Of a stretch of 64,000 bases of DNA, positions 8,758 through 50,860 are shown piece by piece; position 1 is the stretch's first letter; every line of letters starts with the position of its first letter. The stretch is from Bacteroidota bacterium (GTDB taxonomy: Bacteria > Bacteroidota > Bacteroidia > B-17B0 > Aurantibacillaceae). The notes under the pieces are model-generated. The model saw nothing but the letters and a program-made list of their open reading frames with translations, had not been told where the DNA came from and made no database searches. Position numbers and translations under genes: made by a program. Where the stretch lies: the NCBI GenBank assembly GCA_013697245.1, contig JACCXH010000015.1, positions 1-64,000 of the forward strand, given 5' to 3'.

Positions 8758-9840
8758 TTGGCTAAAGTAAATACACATAAAACAACCATTTTAGGCGTTA
8801 TGAGCGGCACTTCGCTGGATGGGCTAGACCTTGCCCTTTGCGAATTTGAATACGAAAACGGCAAATACAGATACAAGATCTTAAAAGCAGAAACGGCATC
8901 TTATACGCAATTGTGCGCCAGTACTTTAAGGAATGTGCATACTTTTAAAGCCCTGCAATATGCCTCGGTAAACGCTTCTTATGGCAAATTAATAGGCGAA
9001 GAAATAAACAAATTTTTAAAGAAAAGTACCCGAAAAGCAAAGGCAATTGCCTCTCACGGACACACAGTTTTTCATAAACCAGATTTGGGATTTACTACAC
9101 AAATTGGCTGCGGTGCAACCATTGCAGCTGTAACAAAAACAACAACTGTTTGCGATTTTAGAAGCCTGGATGTTGCTAATGGTGGACAAGGTGCGCCTTT
9201 AGTGCCAATTGGAGATAAATTATTGTTTGGCGATTACGATGCTTGTTTAAATATTGGTGGTATTGCCAACATTTCGTTTGATAAAAACAAAAAAAGAATT
9301 GCCTATGATATTTGTGAAGCAAATATGTTGTTGAATTACCTGGCAGAAAGAACCGGTAAAGCTTATGATAAAGACGGAAAAATAGCAAAATCCGGAAAAG
9401 TGAATGCGAAGCTTTTAAAAGAATTGAATGCATTAGCATACTATTCAAAAACAGGAGCTAAGTCTATAGGTCGTGAATGGTTCTTTGAAAATATTTTAAA
9501 GCGCATTGAAAAAAGCCGAGTAGAATTAAATAATTTACTGGCAACAGCAACCGAACATGTGGCGCAAATAATAGCCAACGACCTGAATAAAAATAAAATT
9601 AAAAAAGTGTTAGTAACCGGCGGCGGCGCTTTTAATAAACATTTAATTGAATTGATAAGCGAAAAAACAAATTGCGAGATCATTATTCCAAATGCACAGA
9701 CCGTAAATTTTAAGGAAGCCTTGATCTTTGCTTTTTTGGGTTATTTACGTTTGAACGAAAAAATAAACACTTTAAGTTCTGTAACAGGCGCAAAGATCGA
9801 TAGTGTTGGAGGAGCGGTTTATTTAGGGAATAGCGATTAG
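8758..9840 (+). CDS. anmK: anhydro-N-acetylmuramic acid kinase
   Basis: A 360-residue AnmK. The enzyme opens 1,6-anhydroMurNAc and phosphorylates it to MurNAc-6-P during cell-wall recycling. Visible are the N-terminal phosphate-binding GVMSGTSLDGLDLAL, SHGHTVFHKP in the first domain, NGGQGAPLVPIGD, the NIGGIANISF strand and VTGGGAFN near the C-terminus, all typical of this ASKHA-fold family. I keep the TTG start because the conserved GVMSGTS needs residues before it; the in-frame ATG at the MSGTS methionine would cut the first strand. It is divergent from the acyl-CoA dehydrogenase gene. Confidence 0.93.
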   Translation: MAKVNTHKTTILGVMSGTSLDGLDLALCEFEYENGKYRYKILKAETASYTQLCASTLRNVHTFKALQYASVNASYGKLIGEEINKFLKKSTRKAKAIASHGHTVFHKPDLGFTTQIGCGATIAAVTKTTTVCDFRSLDVANGGQGAPLVPIGDKLLFGDYDACLNIGGIANISFDKNKKRIAYDICEANMLLNYLAERTGKAYDKDGKIAKSGKVNAKLLKELNALAYYSKTGAKSIGREWFFENILKRIEKSRVELNNLLATATEHVAQIIANDLNKNKIKKVLVTGGGAFNKHLIELISEKTNCEIIIPNAQTVNFKEALIFAFLGYLRLNEKINTLSSVTGAKIDSVGGAVYLGNSD

Positions 9841-43837: not shown

Positions 43838-44120
43838 AAGCGTAAGCAAACAATGTGAGTTGGCCGCATAAGATTTTTCATAAAAACTCATCGTCGGTTA
43901 AAAGAGTGGCTTGTGTGAAAGATGATTTTTGTCTCTCGCGGAGCGCTTAAATCATCAGGTTTGAGCGATGATGAATTTTAGAAAAATATTATGCAGCCTC
44001 GATTTTTGCTCCACTTTTTATCAAAGAAAAAGTGGATTGATAATTTTTTATAAAGATCTCGCCTTTCTTTTCATCAAGCAAAAAGTAATGGCAAGAAATG
44101 AGTTCAGGAATTGATTTTTT
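43838..44120 (+). repeat. structured repeat A, copy 1
   Basis: First copy of a four-member family. It begins AAGCGTAAGCAAAC. A long hairpin runs from 43862 to 43998, with outer arms of 16/18 matched positions and inner arms AAAACTCATCGTCG / CGATGATGAATTTT. An inner stem GATGATTT...AAATCATC (43921-43956) holds a conserved GCG-rich apex. Then follows a second hairpin CCACTTTTT/AAAAAGTGG and the 3' tail GAAATGAGTTCAGGAATTGA. It lies between the AI-2E transporter and the OmpA-fusion gene. No coding potential. Confidence 0.85.
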
Positions 44121-44140
44121 TGTCCGCAAACAAACTAGTC

Positions 44141-44191
44141 ATTCCGGGCCTGAGCCGGAATCTCAGCACTAAACCTGTTTGAGTGCTGAGA
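44141..44191. repeat. two adjacent perfect hairpins
   Basis: ATTCCGG/CCGGAAT (44141-44161, 7-nt loop) directly abuts TCTCAGCACT/AGTGCTGAGA (44161-44191, 11-nt loop, 10 bp). Short palindromes starting CATTCCGGG and CCGGAATCTC are familiar repetitive-element sequences in many bacteria. It follows repeat A copy 1. Confidence 0.7.
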
Positions 44192-44319
44192 TGCTGAACC
44201 CTAAATTATGATGCTTTTTTACCTTTTTTTAAGATTTCGCCTAAAATACTGTAACTTTTTTTGTGGATATTTATTATAAACTGCATCTAAAGATAAATAC
44301 CCTTTTTAAAAACTCTCTC

Positions 44320-45810
44320 ATGAAAAAAATCTTACTTGCTTTAACCGTATTTACAGGGTTTACAGCTTCTTCTACTTTTGCCCAAGCCGTAGCTAACTTT
44401 AAAACCTACAAAACACAGCCAACAGGTAACTTCGATGCCCGCAACTTATTGCAAACATTGGTGGGCGAAGGTGTAGTGCTAAAAAGTTTTTCCATTACCA
44501 AAGCCTCGTCTGACGAAGCTTTTGGTTTTTTTGAGGATAAAAAAGCCGTTTTGGGTATGAAAAAAGGCCTGATTATGACAACGGGCGGCATTAACGGACT
44601 TTGCTCCGGCAATACTTCCGTAGGTATGTCCAATTACACACACGATAAAATGGAGAGTAGGGGTAAAACAGTTGTTTCTGATAATACCAGCGTTGATCTT
44701 GAAAAAATATTGCACGGACAAAAAACGTTTGATGCCTGCGTGATAGAATTAGATATTGTACCAACAGCAGATACTTTAAGTTTTAATTATGTTTTTGGTT
44801 CCGAAGAGTATGATGAATATGTTGGTTCGCAATACAACGATGCTTTTGCTTTTTTTATTAGCGGTAAAGGAATTACCGGCGATAAAAATTTAGCGGTAGT
44901 TCCAAATTCAGATATCCCGGTAAGTGTTAACTCTATTAATGGTGGCGGTACAAGATATTCGCGCACGGTGCCATCCAACCCAACTTATTTTGTAAGCAAT
45001 GTGGCAGGAAATGTAGCAATAGAATACGATGGTTTAACGAAACTGATGGAGATCCGCCAACCGGTTACGCCTTACGAAACTTACCATTTAAAAATGTGCA
45101 TTGCCGATGTAAGCGACGATTCTTTTGACAGTGGTGTTTTTATTGAAGGCCAAAGTTTTGTATCCTACGAAAAAAGTTACAATGTATTATATGGTACCAA
45201 TAGTTCTGAAATTGATAAAGGATATAAAACATTGTTGGATAATTTAGCGAAGTTGTATAAAGATAATACCAAAGGAAAGATCCTAATTACCGGTCATACC
45301 GATAATCAAGGTTCAGAAGAATTGAACCAGCAATTATCCTGCACACGTGCAAATGGTGTGGTAGATTATTTAAAATTAAAAGGCGTAGATCCTTCGCGTA
45401 TTGTTATGAATTGTAAAGGCGAAACAATGCCACGCGCAACCAACGAGACGGAAGAAGGACAGTTTTTGAACCGTCGTGTACAAATAAAGATCAGCGGTTC
45501 GAACGAAGAATACGCTAAGAAAAAAAATGAAGGAACCATCGCAGAAGAGCAATCAAAATTATTGACCAACTATCCAAACCCTTTTGCAACTAGCACAACT
45601 ATTGAGGCATTTTTGTTAGACGATGTAAAAAATGCGCAGGTCCTTATTTATGATATGACGGGTAAAATGATAAAAACAATTTATTTGCTAGAGCGTGGTA
45701 AAACGAGTACTACTTTCGACGGACAAAATTTAACCAACGGCACTTACCCTGCCACTTTAATTGTAGATGGTAAACCTGCAGGAAGTATTAAATTAGTTGT
45801 TGCGCACTAG
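44320..45810 (+). CDS. choice-of-anchor L / OmpA / T9SS fusion protein
   Basis: About 496 residues from the ATG at 44320, giving a normal signal peptide (MKKILLALTVFTGFTASSTFAQ); a GTG at 44263 would extend it. Domain order is a choice-of-anchor L domain (about 30-270, with GLIMTTGGINGLCSG, FNYVFGSEEYDEYVGSQYNDAFAFFISG and CIADVSDDSFDSGVFIEG), an OmpA-like peptidoglycan-binding domain (about 295-405, with ITGHTDNQGSEELNQQLSC and NRRVQIKI) and a C-terminal type A T9SS sorting domain (about 418-496, NYPNPFATSTTIEAF). Carrying both OmpA and T9SS modules in one chain is unusual. It could tether the cell surface to the wall. Confidence 0.88.
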   Translation: MKKILLALTVFTGFTASSTFAQAVANFKTYKTQPTGNFDARNLLQTLVGEGVVLKSFSITKASSDEAFGFFEDKKAVLGMKKGLIMTTGGINGLCSGNTSVGMSNYTHDKMESRGKTVVSDNTSVDLEKILHGQKTFDACVIELDIVPTADTLSFNYVFGSEEYDEYVGSQYNDAFAFFISGKGITGDKNLAVVPNSDIPVSVNSINGGGTRYSRTVPSNPTYFVSNVAGNVAIEYDGLTKLMEIRQPVTPYETYHLKMCIADVSDDSFDSGVFIEGQSFVSYEKSYNVLYGTNSSEIDKGYKTLLDNLAKLYKDNTKGKILITGHTDNQGSEELNQQLSCTRANGVVDYLKLKGVDPSRIVMNCKGETMPRATNETEEGQFLNRRVQIKISGSNEEYAKKKNEGTIAEEQSKLLTNYPNPFATSTTIEAFLLDDVKNAQVLIYDMTGKMIKTIYLLERGKTSTTFDGQNLTNGTYPATLIVDGKPAGSIKLVVAH

Positions 45811-45815
45811 GTGCA

Positions 45816-46055
45816 ACCGCGTAAGCACACAAAGTATATCGGCCTTTTAAAATTTTGCGTAAAAAATCTTCTTCTTCGAAAGGGTAGGAGTGTGTGAAGA
45901 TGATTTTGGCTGTTCGCGAAGCGCTTAAATCATCTGGCTTGAAGAAGAAAGATTTTTAGCGAAAGTTTAATAAAGCCTTGATTTTTGCTCCACTTTTTAT
46001 CAAGAAAAAGTGGATTGAAGATTTTTTATAAAGATCACGCCTTTCTTTTTCCTTG
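45816..46055 (+). repeat. structured repeat A, copy 2
   Basis: The long hairpin spans 45841-45977. The inner arms are CTTCTTC / GAAGAAG extended by AAAAA/TTTTT, so they pair with sequences unlike copy 1. The same inner stem GATGATTT/AAATCATC (45898-45933) and GCG-rich apex are present. A second hairpin CCACTTTTT/AAAAAGTGG follows. It starts about 5 nt after the OmpA-fusion stop codon. Confidence 0.85.
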
Positions 46056-46056
46056 A

Positions 46057-46084
46057 TGACGGCAATGCAAAGCATTGAGCGAGC
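46057..46084. repeat. small hairpin, inverted copy of 47512-47537
   Basis: The segment contains CAATGCAAAGCATTG, a 6-bp stem. Read in reverse it matches 47512-47537 almost exactly (CTCAATGCTTTGCATTG then CCGTCA or ACGTCA). The element occurs in opposite orientation at the two A-repeat copies. Confidence 0.6.
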
Positions 46085-46100
46085 TAGTGTGTATGATAAA

Positions 46101-46312
46101 CAAAAAATCAAGACTGCAAAGAAATTCCTTGATTTGATCTTTTAATTTTTTTGGAATCGCCCTGAATTTAGCTTCTTTGGAAATAAAAACTAGTCAGGCT
46201 CAATGTAATTTTAAAATGGTATTATGCCAAAATGCACAACTTAATTTACATTTTAAAATTACCGGTGATTAAAAAATTAAAACACAAATCCTACAGAATT
46301 TCTTTGAGGCCG
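46101..46312 (+). repeat. structured repeat B, copy 1
   Basis: Shared with 49300-49510. It begins with a hairpin AATCAAG...CTTGATT around TGCAAAGAAATTC. It then has TTTAATTTTTTTG, a variable middle, and a perfect 14-bp inverted repeat GTAATTTTAAAATG (46205-46218) / CATTTTAAAATTAC (46249-46262), followed by a conserved tail TTAAAACACAAATC and ACAGAATTTCTTTGAGGCCG. It lies after A copy 2 here. Confidence 0.8.
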
Positions 46313-46406
46313 TTATACTGTATTTGCTTGCGCATAAATGAACATAGCTTAATGGCCAAACTGGTATAAAATTTTCATAGTTATTATGAACTTAAAATAT
46401 AATATC

Positions 46407-46958
46407 ATGGAAAAGAAATTAAGTGGGAAAAAAATTGCCATAATTGTTACAGATGGCTTTGAGCAATCAGAATTTGAAAAACCAAAGCAAGCCCTTGAGG
46501 AACAAGGCGCTAAAATAGATGTGATCTCTTTAGAAAAAGGAAAAATAAAAGCCTGGAAGGACAAGAACTGGGGAGATGAATTTGAAGTTACCGCAACAAT
46601 TGAGGAAGTAGAAAGTGGAGATTATGACGCACTTGTTTTACCGGGTGGCGTTATGAACCCCGATAAATTACGTGTAAATAATAATGTAGTGGATTTTGTT
46701 GCCGACTTTTTAGACGAAGGCAAACCTATTGCCGCAATTTGTCACGGACCATGGACATTGATCGAAACGCATAATATTGAAGGCCGTAGAATGACCTCTT
46801 TTCCCTCTATTAAAACCGACCTTATAAATGCCGGTGTAAAATGGGTAGATGAAGAGGTTGTTGTAGACGAAGGTTTGGTTACCAGCCGCAGCCCAAAAGA
46901 TCTGCCTGCTTTTTGCAAAAAAATGATAGAAGAATTTGCCGAAGGCGTACATCACTAA
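46407..46958 (+). CDS. DJ-1/PfpI family (GATase1-like) protein
   Basis: About 183 residues from the ATG at 46407 (MEKKLSGKKIAIIV); an upstream in-frame ATG at 46386 adds a short tail. Motifs are ALVLPGGVMNPDKLR, the nucleophile elbow AICHGPWTLIE with the reactive Cys, and TSFPSIKTDLINAGVKWVDEEVVVDEGLVTSRSPKDLPAFCKKM. This pattern matches YhbO/PfpI-type stress proteins that act on glyoxal-derived damage or as chaperone/protease-like hydrolases. It is followed 11 nt later by a small lipoprotein, probably in the same transcript. It is flanked by repeats on both sides. Confidence 0.92.
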   Translation: MEKKLSGKKIAIIVTDGFEQSEFEKPKQALEEQGAKIDVISLEKGKIKAWKDKNWGDEFEVTATIEEVESGDYDALVLPGGVMNPDKLRVNNNVVDFVADFLDEGKPIAAICHGPWTLIETHNIEGRRMTSFPSIKTDLINAGVKWVDEEVVVDEGLVTSRSPKDLPAFCKKMIEEFAEGVHH

Positions 46959-46969
46959 AATTTTAAAAC

Positions 46970-47182
46970 ATGAAGACAAAAATAATTTATATCGTACCAA
47001 TTGCGGTATTTATTTCAGTAATAGTTGCCTGTAGCTCTAATGGTAATACGGGTAATGGCGCCGCCGATACCGGAATAAAAGTAGGTTCAGGCGTTTCAGA
47101 TTCATTGGATCCTGAAAAAGGAACTTATGATACCAGTACTACGCCCAGGGAAAGTAAAAAAGATGTGAGCGTACATCATTAA
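46970..47182 (+). CDS. small lipoprotein
   Basis: A 70-residue lipoprotein: signal peptide with lipobox VIVAC (Cys22) and then a low-complexity Gly/Asn/Ser/Asp-rich mature part ending KDVSVHH. It is predicted to sit at the membrane; the mature region looks unstructured. It lies directly after the DJ-1 gene. No family recognised. Confidence 0.7.
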   Translation: MKTKIIYIVPIAVFISVIVACSSNGNTGNGAADTGIKVGSGVSDSLDPEKGTYDTSTTPRESKKDVSVHH

Positions 47183-47243
47183 AAAGCCTTGATTTTTGCT
47201 CTAATTTTATCAAGAAAAAAGGGATTGATGATTTTTTATAATG
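47183..47243 (+). repeat. partial repeat A (second hairpin module only)
   Basis: Begins AAAAAGCCTTGATTTTTGCT right after the lipoprotein stop. It keeps only the second-hairpin part of repeat A, with mutated arms (CTAATTTTATC/AAGAAAAAAGGG), followed by TTGATGATTTTTTATAATGAT. A truncated or decayed copy. Confidence 0.65.
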
Positions 47244-47262
47244 ATTCTAGGGTGGTTTGCTT

Positions 47263-47495
47263 GGCGCGTAAGCAAACCAAGTGTTACGGCCTTTTAAAAT
47301 TTTGCGTAAAAAATCTTCTTCTTCAAAAGGGTAGGCGTGCGCGAAGATGATTTTGGCTGTTCGCGAAGCGCTTAAATCATCTGGCTTGAAGAAGAAAGAT
47401 TTTTAGCGAAAGTTTAATAAAGCCTTGATTTTTTGGTTACTTTTTGATCAAGCAAAAAGTGACGGCGGGAAATGCGTTCAGAAATTGATTTTTTG
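47263..47495 (+). repeat. structured repeat A, copy 3
   Basis: Closest to copy 2 (inner arms CTTCTTC/GAAGAAG, same apex). The second hairpin differs: GGTTACTTTTTG pairs imperfectly with GCAAAAAGTGACGGC around ATCAA. The 3' tail GGGAAATGCGTTCAGAAATTGA matches the tail of copy 1. It lies between the small lipoprotein and the 47568 gene. Confidence 0.85.
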
Positions 47496-47511
47496 ATTCT
47501 TTCGCAAAAGC

Positions 47512-47537
47512 CCGCTCAATGCTTTGCATTGACGTCA
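47512..47537. repeat. small hairpin, inverted copy of 46057-46084
   Basis: CTCAATGCTTTGCATTGACGTCA: a 6-bp stem with TTT loop, the reverse complement (one mismatch) of the hairpin at 46057-46084. Confidence 0.6.
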
Positions 47538-47567
47538 TTAATCAAAAATTGAGGTGAAAATTAAAAA

Positions 47568-47753
47568 CTAAAACTTACCAAAGATCTCTAGGATCTCTGT
47601 TTGATACTCATTACCAAAAGTAGCTAAACACCAAACCTTTAAAAGTGTTTTTTCATCGGGCTTAACCCAATTAATGGCTTTGGTTAATTCTTTACAAAAA
47701 AGTGTTCTATCAAAACTTACTTTTTCTAAAACTGTTTTACTAAACTCGAACAT
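47568..47753 (-). CDS. small conserved-looking hypothetical protein
   Basis: From the ATG at 47753 it encodes 61 residues, MFEFSKTVLEKVSFDRTLFC and KELTKAINWVKPDEKTLL and KVWCLATFGNEYQTEILEIFGKF. The longer frame from 47786 adds a stretch that looks like intergenic translation. It is a compact helical protein with FxKTVLxKVSFD, a pattern I recall from other Bacteroidota, but I cannot name a function. It is on the opposite strand to the repeat copies around it. Confidence 0.65.
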   Translation of the reverse strand: MFEFSKTVLEKVSFDRTLFCKELTKAINWVKPDEKTLLKVWCLATFGNEYQTEILEIFGKF

Positions 47754-47925
47754 AAGTGATAATACTGGTAATAAATTATAACGCAAATGTAAATGCTTTA
47801 TTGTGTGACTTATTACTATTTAAGTTTTGTTAACAAATGCTTAATATTAAAAAAAGAAAAGCTTGCCTTTTAGAGTGTTTGGTTACCACTTGTAATTACA
47901 ATTTTTTATATAAAGAGAACTTGAT

Positions 47926-48155
47926 TTAATCAATTTTGCAGGGAATAGAGGCAATAAGAACATCATTGCTATAAGTATCAGTTTTTTTCTTTTTGCCGTT
48001 CACTTCAAATTCTTCCATTGTAATTCTTTTGTTTCCGAAAAAACTACCGAACCTGTATGGTTTTTGCAAGAATAGGTTTTTGATTTTTTGCATGAACCAA
48101 TACTCAAGCTAACTAGAAATAACCATAAAATTGTTTTTTCTTTTTTTTTGATAAT
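47926..48155 (-). pseudogene. frameshifted small lipoprotein
   Basis: On the minus strand the frame beginning ATT ATC AAA AAA (48155) encodes a signal peptide and lipobox (KTILWLFLVSLSIGSCKK). It stops after NLK. One frame over, the continuation reads PYRFGSFFGNKRITMEEFEVNG and then KKKKTDTYSNDVLIASIPCKID to a stop at 47926. Adding one A to the A5 run just after SC would join them into one 75-residue lipoprotein. Either the gene is broken, or the read has a homopolymer error. The start codon would be ATT or ATC. Confidence 0.6.
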
Positions 48156-48179
48156 TTAAGTAAAATAAATAAATGATCG

Positions 48180-49124
48180 TTAAACCAACTCTCTCCAAAA
48201 ACCCATTCTAACATTTGGGTATTGCGTAAGGTCATAAGAATTTAGAGACTTATATTCTAATACGCGGCTATCAAAATAGTTTTGATCAATGCCGGGGTAA
48301 TCAATACCATCATCTTGCTCCAGCAAATTAAGATCATCAGAAATAAGGTGCACCATTAGTTCGGCGCAGTTTTTATCGTTAGCAATAAAATTTTTAAAAA
48401 AGCGGTTAAGCCTTTTGTGTTTATGATTTATTTCCAGTTTAGCGGCGGCATCTAAAAAACCCGATTGCGGTATGGGGCCATAATGGCTACATTCTAAAAT
48501 ATTTGGCGCTAAGATCTTTATTTCAAAATTACTGTAGTAATTGTTTATCTCCCTTCCAAACTTTCTTACCTCGCGTAATTTTTTTAAGGGCACGTAACGC
48601 AGCAGCATAATATCAAGCACGGTGCGAAAGGTACAATCTTTACCACCGGGGCTGAGGTTAATAGAGCGTATAGGCAATTTAAGATCTTCTGCCACTTTTA
48701 AATATACTTTAAATAAACCGGCTGTTGTTGTTAAGGTAGTGTGGTGGCAACTTAAATTAGAAACAGGTATGCCATTGTCTAAAAATACCTGCACCTGTGC
48801 TTTTAATTCTTTTTCTAAAAGTTTTGGCACGGCTTCAATGGCATTAATATTTAAATTACTAAAGGGCCTAAACGTATTTCCGTAACAAAAGGCATCGTTA
48901 TTTTGTACTGTTAGTGCATTACCCGATGAGATGGTTAAATGGCAACCAATATCTGCTTTGGTACCAAACTCGGCAATAAGTTCTTTTACATTTTTAACCG
49001 AATCTTTATAATTAGCAATGCAGGCAACAGAATTTACTTTGTTGTTGCGAATGGCATCTTTTACACCTTGGTTAATAGACGGAAAAACACCAAAGTCATC
49101 AGCAGTAACAATTAGATTTTTCAT
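48180..49124 (-). CDS. YdjC/ChbG-type carbohydrate deacetylase
   Basis: A 314-residue YdjC-like (ChbG/HpnK) protein, a metal-dependent TIM-barrel enzyme removing acetyl groups from N-acetylated sugars. Metal-binding elements are IVTADDFGVFPSINQGV (with the DD pair), DIGCHLTISSG with a His, and SCHHTTLT. C-terminal elements are HYGPIPQSGFLDAAAKLEI and CAELMVHLIS ... YPGIDQNYFDSRVLEYKSL. Length matches. It is isolated from other sugar genes, so the substrate is open (chitin-like oligosaccharide or polar lipid head group). Confidence 0.9.
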   Translation of the reverse strand: MKNLIVTADDFGVFPSINQGVKDAIRNNKVNSVACIANYKDSVKNVKELIAEFGTKADIGCHLTISSGNALTVQNNDAFCYGNTFRPFSNLNINAIEAVPKLLEKELKAQVQVFLDNGIPVSNLSCHHTTLTTTAGLFKVYLKVAEDLKLPIRSINLSPGGKDCTFRTVLDIMLLRYVPLKKLREVRKFGREINNYYSNFEIKILAPNILECSHYGPIPQSGFLDAAAKLEINHKHKRLNRFFKNFIANDKNCAELMVHLISDDLNLLEQDDGIDYPGIDQNYFDSRVLEYKSLNSYDLTQYPNVRMGFWRELV

Positions 49125-49299
49125 GACAAGATTTATGATATATAAAGATAAAAAATAATTTTATTTCCTTTTCCAGCTACCCAAAAAATAACCTCTTAAA
49201 AGGCTACAAGACTTATGGCACCCTCTCTAAAGGGGTTCAGATAATTTAAATTAATTTTTTTATAATTTTTCGCTTCAACTTTTTCTTGATAAAAAGTTG

Positions 49300-49510
49300 A
49301 TCAAAAATCAAGGCTGCAAAGAAATTCCTTGATTTGATGTTTTAATTTTTTTGCGTCGCCTACGAACTCGCTCATTCTTCGCTCAAACAACGTAGGCCCA
49401 AATGTAATTTTAAAATGGGATCGCGCTCAAATGACTACTTACCATATATTTTAAAATTACCGGTGGTTAAAAAATTAAAACACAAATCATACAGAATTTC
49501 TTTGAGGCCG
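49300..49510 (+). repeat. structured repeat B, copy 2
   Basis: Second copy of repeat B. It has the same opening hairpin AATCAAGG...CCTTGATT. The inverted repeat GTAATTTTAAAAT / ATTTTAAAATTAC (13 bp) is kept, with a different middle. The tail ACAGAATTTCTTTGAGGCCG is identical. Here B is followed by A, the opposite order to 45.8-46.3 kb. Confidence 0.8.
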
Positions 49511-49526
49511 ACTAGCAATGTATAAT

Positions 49527-49737
49527 GCCGCGCAAGCACGCATCGGTTTAGGGCCTCATAAGATTTTGCGTAAAAATTCATTATAGATCAAAAGCGTAGG
49601 CTTGTGCAAAAGATGATTTTTGCATCTCGCGAAGCGCTTAAAATCATCAGGCTTGATCTGTGATGAATTTTAGCAAAATATTATGAAAGCCTTGAATTTT
49701 TTGCTTACTTTTTTGTTCAAGCAAAAAAGTGAGGCCA
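49527..49737 (+). repeat. structured repeat A, copy 4
   Basis: Long hairpin 49552-49691. The inner arms AAAATTCATTATAGATCAA and TTGATCTGTGATGAATTTT pair over 19 positions (two G-T), a sequence unlike copies 1-3. Inner stem and GCG-rich apex are conserved, with one extra A. The second hairpin is CTTACTTTTTTG/CAAAAAAGTGAG. It lies between YdjC and AlkC. Confidence 0.85.
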
Positions 49738-49744
49738 AAATGAA

Positions 49745-49764
49745 TAAAAAAGATCTCGTTGAGA
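49745..49764 (-). terminator. terminator after alkC
   Basis: On the minus strand ATCTC, loop AAC, GAGAT, then CTTTTTTA. It starts 14 nt beyond the AlkC stop codon and abuts repeat A copy 4. Confidence 0.55.
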
Positions 49765-49777
49765 TTATTACAGTTTA

Positions 49778-50860
49778 TTATATACTTAATTTAAACGCAA
49801 GCTTTGCAAGCACTTTCCCATTCACTTGTATCTCCAACAAATGTTCTCCTGAAAAATGTTTGCGGGTTGTAAAATCTTTTATCATTTGTTTTTTTGAGAT
49901 GCTTATTTTTTCTTTTGCTTTTAATTCTAGTTCTTTTAATTTAAAAACTTTGGCAGAAAGCTCTTTCCCTTTTTTTTGGTAATGAATAATATAATCAACT
50001 ACCAATTTTTGTTTTATATTTTTTTCTGAGATCAAGTCAAACTCAAATTCTAAATTAGTTCCCAATTTTATTTTTGGTTTAAGGATCTTAAAATTTTGAA
50101 TTTTTATTTTTGGGTTTTTTTCAAAATCAAACAGCGCTAATGAACTGGCATTACCTTTTTTTATCAAACTGCGGCTGGCATGTTTCACGATCCAGGCAGT
50201 GTGCGCATTGCTTTTATCCCAGCTTTTTAAAACCCGCAGCATAAAATCGGTATTATCTTTTGAATGATCGTTTAAATGATTGGCCACTGATTTACGCACG
50301 TACAATTCATCATCTGTTTTTAAAATTTCTAAAATACCTTGCGTGCTTTTTGGGTTCTTAATTACTTCGTCTAGTTTAAAAGACCAGGGTAAGCGTGGGC
50401 GACTACCTTCTGAAGCTAAACGACGCACATCGGCATTTTTATCTTTGGCCCAAACATGCATTACTTTAATGGTACGATTAAAATCACGTTTTAAAAATTC
50501 GCGAATAGCAAATTCAGAAGAACCAAACTGTGTAAAATATTTTAAAGCCTCTAAAGAGAGGTCAACGTTATCATGTCCGTAAACCCCAACAAGATCCGGA
50601 AACACCAAATTAGTATACCCTCTTTGAGTGGTTGGAATAACTTTGTAAAGTACTTCGATGGCTTTTTTATAATCGGCCGGTAAATGTTTTCTCAATATAT
50701 GCGATGTCTTGCGCATCCGTTCATTCAAAGAAAGTGGCTCCATATCTTTAGTCACTTCTTTTATAAATTTCGTGGCGCCAAAATTTTCATCTGCTTTACT
50801 AAATGCCAATGCCAATTCGTTGTAAAATTTTTTATTGAACATTTCTTTTAAGGGCTCCAT
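49778..50860 (-). CDS. alkC: AlkC-type DNA alkylation repair protein
   Basis: A 360-residue HEAT-repeat glycosylase-like protein. The N-terminal two-thirds form HEAT-type helices with the family stretch VRRLASEGSRPRLPW (about 150-164), TDDELYVRKSVANHLND and WIVKHASRSLIKKG. The C-terminal third (about 255-360) is beta-rich (LEFEFDLISEKN, VDYIIHYQKKGKELSAKVFKLKELELK), matching the Ig-like extension in some AlkC proteins. AlkC/AlkD enzymes excise 3-methyladenine-type lesions. Another alkylation-related gene (ATL) is at 10552. Confidence 0.82.
   Translation of the reverse strand: MEPLKEMFNKKFYNELALAFSKADENFGATKFIKEVTKDMEPLSLNERMRKTSHILRKHLPADYKKAIEVLYKVIPTTQRGYTNLVFPDLVGVYGHDNVDLSLEALKYFTQFGSSEFAIREFLKRDFNRTIKVMHVWAKDKNADVRRLASEGSRPRLPWSFKLDEVIKNPKSTQGILEILKTDDELYVRKSVANHLNDHSKDNTDFMLRVLKSWDKSNAHTAWIVKHASRSLIKKGNASSLALFDFEKNPKIKIQNFKILKPKIKLGTNLEFEFDLISEKNIKQKLVVDYIIHYQKKGKELSAKVFKLKELELKAKEKISISKKQMIKDFTTRKHFSGEHLLEIQVNGKVLAKLAFKLSI

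Follow-up and report, generated by a model that had tools for sequence, protein, structure and literature searches.

What are the four long, structured repeats that lie between ordinary genes at 43838-49740 of a contig from a Bacteroidota genome (JACCXH010000015.1, here G000:C54)? The window is the whole stretch analysed, G000:C54:1-64000, and the genome, G000, comprises 4.44 Mb in 74 contigs. The original prediction described these repeats as four copies of one intergenic element, element A, shaped by selection on base pairing or by hairpin-dependent spread. Covariation, further copies and site differences support that proposal: the element belongs to a family that is dispersed in many copies, differs in its sites among related genomes, covaries along its hairpin and prefers the 3' ends of genes. 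We consider it probable that the four repeats come from a family of non-autonomous mobile DNA elements, similar to repetitive extragenic palindromes (REPs), bacterial interspersed mosaic elements (BIMEs) or miniature inverted-repeat transposable elements (MITEs), and that the folded plus strand, as single-stranded DNA or RNA, is needed for the family's own spread.

Sequence reading, a repeat finder and a search with a covariance model, R1, agree on the four predicted copies, which start at 43838, 45816, 47263 and 49527, all on the plus strand. R1 was built partly from the window copies, which bears on the 175.8-224.3 bits that they score. Element A is not alone in this interval, which also holds reversed units of its family:

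43838..44042, plus strand: A unit copy 1 (R1 175.8 bits), with 5' end GCGTAAGCA, GGCC..GCC long hairpin at 43862-43998, inner stem GATGATTT at 43921 / AAATCATC at 43949, and terminal hairpin H
45816..46021, plus strand: A unit copy 2 (R1 200.8 bits)
46035..46334, minus strand: degraded B-type unit (R1 27.8 bits, E 3.6e-4), its 5' end (TGCTTGCGC on the plus strand) near 46325-46335
47185..47231, plus strand: lone H hairpin (GCCTTGATTTTT..ATCAAGAAAAAA), direct repeat D4 (R1 24.2 bits over 47147-47231)
47263..47469, plus strand: A unit copy 3 (R1 224.3 bits), 92% identical to copy 2
49268..49532, minus strand: B-type unit (R1 64.7 bits, E 7.8e-12), left half of the head-to-head pair 49268-49740, with H at the outer (left) end
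49527..49740, plus strand: A unit copy 4 (R1 202.9 bits), right half of the same pair

Every window copy has the layout first described for it: the 5' end reads GCG(T/C)AAGCA, GGCC and GCC bound a long hairpin, an inner stem GATGATTT/AAATCATC surrounds a GCG-rich apex, TCGCG(A/G)AGCGC, and a second, T/A-rich hairpin, H, follows. Read 5' to 3', an A unit consists of a GCGTAAGCA-like end, GGCC, an outer arm, an inner arm, a conserved unpaired stretch of the AAAGCGTNGGC..TGTG type, the inner stem with apex TCGCGAAGCGC, the returning arms, GCC, TTGATTTTTTG and H. B-type units have the same clamp and tail, with different arms and inner modules between them. The family layout is a GGCC/GCC clamp, a long hairpin whose variable letters pair, a variable inner module, the near-constant 3' tail TTGATTTTTTG, and then H. 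Units are about 200-290 bp long (204 positions in R1) and share no gene. The elements have no long open reading frame (ORF) in common, and the 99-aa ORF at 49683-49982, which begins in the tail of copy 4, looks like a chance occurrence. H is a module of its own, since it stands alone at 47185-47231 and ends other unit types; a second H-like hairpin follows copy 1, to about 44096 (nhmmer 11.6 bits, 44066-44096). Units of different types are joined head to head, with H at both outer ends, and the entire pair at 49268-49740 is found again at G000:C44 and C22. Positions 46103-46312 of the degraded unit are 81% identical to the B half of 49240-49760. Many A units of the relatives G007, G019 and G021 have a C-type module on their upstream side; in G006 yet another module type was read from the sequence. 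A pseudoknot between GCGTAAGCACAC and the TGTGCG strand was dropped, as by-eye inspection found that it is not kept in all copies.

Clustered units were seen in other genomes. At 1000-4048 of L097 (G026:C185), B-type units are arrayed with others, mostly in alternating orientation, and the cluster resembles a BIME. At 102-1094 of L320 (G056:C51), three closely similar tandem units lie ~380 bases apart; the ones that were read are preceded by CAGGACTCGAACC-type sequence resembling the reverse complement of a tRNA T-arm, where ARAGORN calls no tRNA.

The covariance model finds further copies in the window's own genome and in most of its genus. G000 contains seven long A copies plus B-type units; R1 gives 17 matches there, including opposite-strand readings of the same palindrome, at 12 places among the matches listed. 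At E<=0.001, R1 matched 31 of the 40 genomes of the genus (262 matches summed, opposite-strand readings included), leaving nine without a match. Across the class, where E-values are rough, matches at E<=1e-4 came from 36 of the 149 genomes drawn and 30 of the 99 genera, own genus included. A DNA search gave matches in 35 of 60 genomes, again counting our own, many of them to B or H parts only. Forty regions were fetched from the DNA-search matches, mostly strong ones, so the copy statistics lean to well-kept units. At class level, 20 regions from 13 genomes and 12 genera were picked among the stronger matches, with L307 coming from the window's own family; they contain 27 R1 matches, among them L307 +, which reads another match from the opposite strand, a truncated one in L323 and a short one at L317:864-948. 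The clamp is present in 25 of these 27 matches (as G(G/A/C)C; GGCC in 14) and in 40 of 41 A copies (GGCC in 37), the CTTGA-TTTT tail in 23 and 38, and CGT in the bulge region in 18 and 31, respectively. Over the phylum, few genomes (4 of 296, own included) carry a strict H pattern. The A apex motif has exact matches in 32 stretches of an 84,980-species set, with titles naming uncultured Bacteroidota, Bacteroidetes or Bacteroidia metagenome-assembled genomes such as UBA2475. Copies are 94-99% alike within G015 and within G024, several at contig ends, and this near-identity suggests recent activity.

At L228 and L232 (G015), units lie directly 3' of genes whose ends resemble, by eye, secretion-system C-terminal tails; similar copies lie near contig ends. 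In the window itself, 9606-9774 gives a weak match, of 14.7 bits with R1 and 11.2 bits with nhmmer, which may be a decayed H tail.

Do the arms change together, as first proposed? The hairpin parts of the window copies fold at energies far below those of 200 dinucleotide shuffles, with z between -3.0 and -6.0 for the plus strand and between -4.5 and -6.0 for the minus strand, the latter being stable as in any palindrome. Across 181 bases, copies 2 and 3 are 92% identical, which reduces the arm types among the four copies to three; the two look like a recent pair. Under neutral scoring, the 3' arm of copy 1 reaches 14 against the 5' arm of copy 4 and 12 against its own. Within the window alone, compensation is thus clear mainly between the copies 2/3 type and the copies 1/4 type, and it is in the larger set of A copies that this part of the original prediction is borne out. 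In A2, an alignment of the 41 A copies with an RNAalifold structure of 40 pairs, two-sided change occurs in 22 of the 40 pairs. Paired cells make up 97.1%, as against 86.8% after shuffling and 52.7 and 52.3% when partners are slid by one column. Two-sided change is found in 164 cells versus 42.0 in shuffles, with 0 of 500 shuffles as high, counts that are not probabilities, as related rows are not independent. The covariation score is 0.296 versus 0.102 in the control, and the covariation overall is far above both the shuffled and the slid controls. Some pairs show four or five types (columns 59/140: UA 10, AU 9, GC 9, CG 5, GU 4). Among the class-level units, the arms within one unit pair with a mean score of 18.4 and a minimum of 10 (25 rows), but they do not pair with the arms of units in other genomes, where the mean is 7.4 and the maximum 15 (568 comparisons; G095 and G131 are of the same genus). 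In alignment A3, 92.5% of cells are paired versus 59.6% after shuffling, with two-sided change in 33 of 40 pairs; A3 was fitted to the model, and its pair counts lean toward structure.

Pairing might also be restored mechanically, if template switching or hairpin repair used one arm as the template for the other and the fold were under no selection. Long palindromes readily undergo correction of this kind, the minus-strand folds are stable as well, and strand-neutral counts (given below) carry no consistent bias. This mechanism predicts equal numbers of G.T and A.C mismatches, however, and in A2 pairs that are at least 60% Watson-Crick we counted 48 G.T versus 4 A.C (spread over 17 and 3 columns; column-wise p 0.0026). 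When pairs were re-chosen on the minus strand to remove the bias of plus-strand choice, the count was 31 versus 5; pairs chosen on both strands gave 31 versus 4 (p 0.035) and the union 48 versus 5 (p 0.007). The A consensus energy is -29.6 on the plus strand and -17.6 on the minus strand. The apex letters, moreover, are nearly constant in A copies while the arms change. We judge purely mechanical restoration to be very unlikely.

We next consider the sites themselves. Synteny was anchored on the ortholog of 44320-45807, which is 92% identical in G021, G006 and G019 and 84% in G007; the flanking genes are syntenic. The comparison covered copies 1-3, and in G007 copies 1 and 2. The gap of ~390 bases that holds copy 1 has a counterpart of ~20 bases in G021 and ~38 in G019, while the same site has a lone H-type hairpin in G006 and other repeats in G007, the A unit being absent in both. 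Copy 2 is absent in G006, G019, G021 and G007. Copy 3 is absent in G006 and G019, and in G021 an A unit stands at its place in the opposite orientation. The reverse case also occurs: a pair in G006 fills an 897-base gap that measures 91 bases in G019 and 90 in G021. Syntenic sites that are empty or oppositely occupied argue against ordinary decay of one duplicated segment, the explanation that could have undone the original prediction, even though copies 2 and 3 resemble a recent pair.

Beside copy 1, at 44138-44180, lies a G+C-richer palindrome (GTCATTCCGGGCCTGAGCCGGAATCTC) that resembles an ordinary GTC-tagged REP-like repeat. A similar sequence, CGTCATTGCGAGG..GAAGCAATC, is present in the G006 gap of L095 (between 1606 and 1820).

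Where do the units lie relative to genes? Context was counted for 57 units in the fetched loci that reached 90 bits or more with the A profile (some of them not strictly A), using mechanical ORFs of at least 100 aa; both neighbours were called for 46 units, and 11 had no called neighbour on one side. Gaps were convergent for 20 of the 46, same-direction for 23 (sense 12, antisense 11) and divergent for 3. Since any genome has roughly as many divergent as convergent gaps, 20 versus 3 (two-sided binomial about 0.0005, with units not fully independent) points to promoter avoidance or a 3'-end preference. A stop codon lies no more than 15 bases from each of copies 1 and 2; copy 2 begins 6 bases past the last stop-codon base of the OmpA/Por_Secre_tail gene at 44263-45810. 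The other genes around the copies are equally ordinary (AI-2E transporter, DJ-1/PfpI, YdjC, TPR/SpoIIE protein), and a sub-threshold DNA_alkylation match is also found among them. This placement, the strong fold and the covariation would also suit structured host RNAs, that is, 3' untranslated region or terminator elements for mRNA stabilisation or termination, maintained through selection acting on host transcripts, with their spread being secondary. Between co-directional genes, however, the near-equal sense and antisense counts speak against a role in the transcript of the gene upstream. Close relatives examined do not share the sites of copies 1-3, and nine genomes of the genus lack a match altogether. 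A host-RNA role seems unlikely to us.

Termini were visible in two relatives. In G015 and G061, five pairs of TAGTCGNCNCTCAA inverted repeats bound stretches of 357-388 bp, and a sixth pair spans 111 bp. Such pairs enclose an A-like unit at G015 C2 and C15 (by nhmmer) and C7 (by R1 match), and at G061 C20 related bounds enclose a C-type module (by eye). Two G015 copies, 97.1% identical over 379 bases, are bounded by TAGTCG..CGACTA, with TA, a possible target site duplication, read by eye at both ends. These termini fit a DDE-type MITE for some units at least, and the repeats as a whole could be a MITE family mobilised by a DDE transposase through their short terminal inverted repeats, with the hairpin as cargo. 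Against this, G000 has only 4 near matches to the TAGTCGNCNCTCAA terminus, compared with 11 for a reversed-pattern control, and none in the window (up to 1 mismatch). No inward-facing terminus pair at transposase spacing was listed in the four genomes searched (up to 1 mismatch), and on the same result an autonomous copy with the G015-type terminus was rejected. A cargo role would also leave the covariation unexplained. We find this account unlikely for the family.

The view that the family spreads by means of its own folded strand has to be weighed against several results. Covariation by itself does not separate DNA from RNA. The minus-picked mismatch count is not significant (12 and 4 columns, p 0.077). 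A strand-neutral count of arm mismatches, G.T/A.C, gave 44/27 in A (p 0.057), 3/7 in ten B/C units and 14/26 in 23 class-wide rows; its arm alignment is cruder, and constant mismatches such as the clamp C.A weigh on the counts. The plus-strand bias is thus shown for A only, and the strand-neutral count lends it no support outside A. Target duplications were unreadable at the window copies compared with empty sites, because the intergenic flanks are too diverged. A search of Y1 transposase genes and TnpB found no mobility enzyme. None of 34 Y1 loci (30 places of 78 matches, four seen twice) had an A unit beside the gene, as searched with the A profile, which detects B and C types weakly; one weak H-like match, of 9.4 bits, was seen in L263. 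G006 and G015, both of which carry units, have no Y1 match at all.

Some other possibilities were rejected. TnpB (OrfB_IS605) was found in 0 of 21 genomes, with the search control positive in 7 of 14, and a TnpB-type guide RNA (IS605/TnpB element RNA) was set aside on that result. A REP borne by a REP-associated tyrosine transposase (RAYT) was set aside because an A unit stood beside 0 of the 30 Y1 places examined. A plasmid or phage vehicle was set aside, as blastn of 49240-49760 had no match in plasmid and phage collections; an 18-base motif had a single viral-contig match, which at 12.3 R1 bits is not a unit, and a second motif had none. No element match reached the Rfam gathering score in the stretches scanned, where weaker ones included MIR7807 (E 3.2e-4) and MIR2630 (E 0.0085), and the only match above threshold was a tRNA in L309.

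Selection on the fold, which is strand-specific in A at least, goes together with indifference to gene orientation and with sites that turn over, and from these we infer that the fold is needed by the element itself. The plus strand would have to fold for its shape to be recognised by an enzyme supplied in trans. The folded form might be single-stranded DNA, either excised or at the replication fork, or else RNA transcribed from the element; the enzyme would then copy or move the unit. Recognition by shape would allow compensated arm changes to be tolerated and to accumulate. The closest working models are the HUH-type single-strand transposition of REPs and of IS200/IS605 relatives.

How does the family compare with known systems? 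CGTC-tagged REPs, found in Bacteroidetes among others, are described in PMC3733652 as palindromic and intergenic, 20-40 bp long with 8-9 bp stems and an unpaired CGTC tag (variants TGTC, CCTC) at one end, lying downstream of genes in convergent or unidirectional gaps, often in opposite-orientation pairs, with no adjoining transposase. Our units are likewise palindromic, intergenic, at gene 3' ends and paired in opposite orientation, and they show the same gap preference (20 convergent, 23 tandem and 3 divergent of 46); they differ in being 200-290 bp long, outside the 20-40 bp range, with a long covarying hairpin beside H. H read outward often starts with CGTC and ends with AACCA (five exact cases in G000), yet the H-end tag in the 41 A copies was CGTC in only 17, CCTC in 6, TGTC in 1, other in 8 and not parsed in 9. 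The mechanism that we regard as most alike is that of RAYT/TnpA-REP systems, in which a HUH enzyme acting in trans reads scattered structured DNA as a single strand; of particular note among these, by description, is subclass 2.6 of Bacteroidetes, which according to PMC6006769 is flanked by 'atypical secondary structures'. Unlike these, our units are absent near the 30 Y1 places, occur in G006 and G015 without a Y1 match, and have no conserved GT(A/G)G foot, the A2 columns before GGCC showing no GTAG/GTGG on inspection.

BIMEs are pairs of REPs in E. coli. Our family recalls them in its mosaic head-to-head pairs and the largely alternating array at G026:C185, and departs from them in unit size and internal structure. 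Integron attC core sites have RYYYAAC/GTTRRRY at the hairpin foot, where by inspection A2 and A3 have GGCC/GCC or a near form. The Porphyromonas gingivalis MITE is reportedly a short, gene-less element; our units are likewise short and gene-less, and the G015/G061 forms have terminal inverted repeats, whereas such termini were not seen at the window copies (up to 1 mismatch). The bcr1 element is about 150 bp long, gene-less and structured, with mobile features. Our units share these traits in a different phylum, a likeness drawn by description alone. PMC2267715 names bcr1 as an element of the Bacillus cereus group. A published description of the present layout was not found in the literature, mostly papers open without subscription, and like the Rfam result this agrees with the earlier impression that no named element has it.

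To our knowledge, the structured mobile repeats of Bacteroidia are little charted. Tentatively, and with rather more doubt than assent, we suggest that these units represent a class-wide, undescribed Bacteroidia mobile element recognised by its shape (a GGCC clamp, an asymmetric CGTAA-type bulge, a long stem that is variable yet paired, and a near-constant terminal hairpin) and moved by an enzyme that would read one folded strand, either single-stranded DNA or the element's own RNA. Its natural covariation displays what is kept (the shape, the clamp and the terminal hairpin) and what is free. It raises a testable question: which enzyme spreads a hairpin whose arm letters can be changed throughout? 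The family may also account for some of the contig breaks in assemblies of this group.

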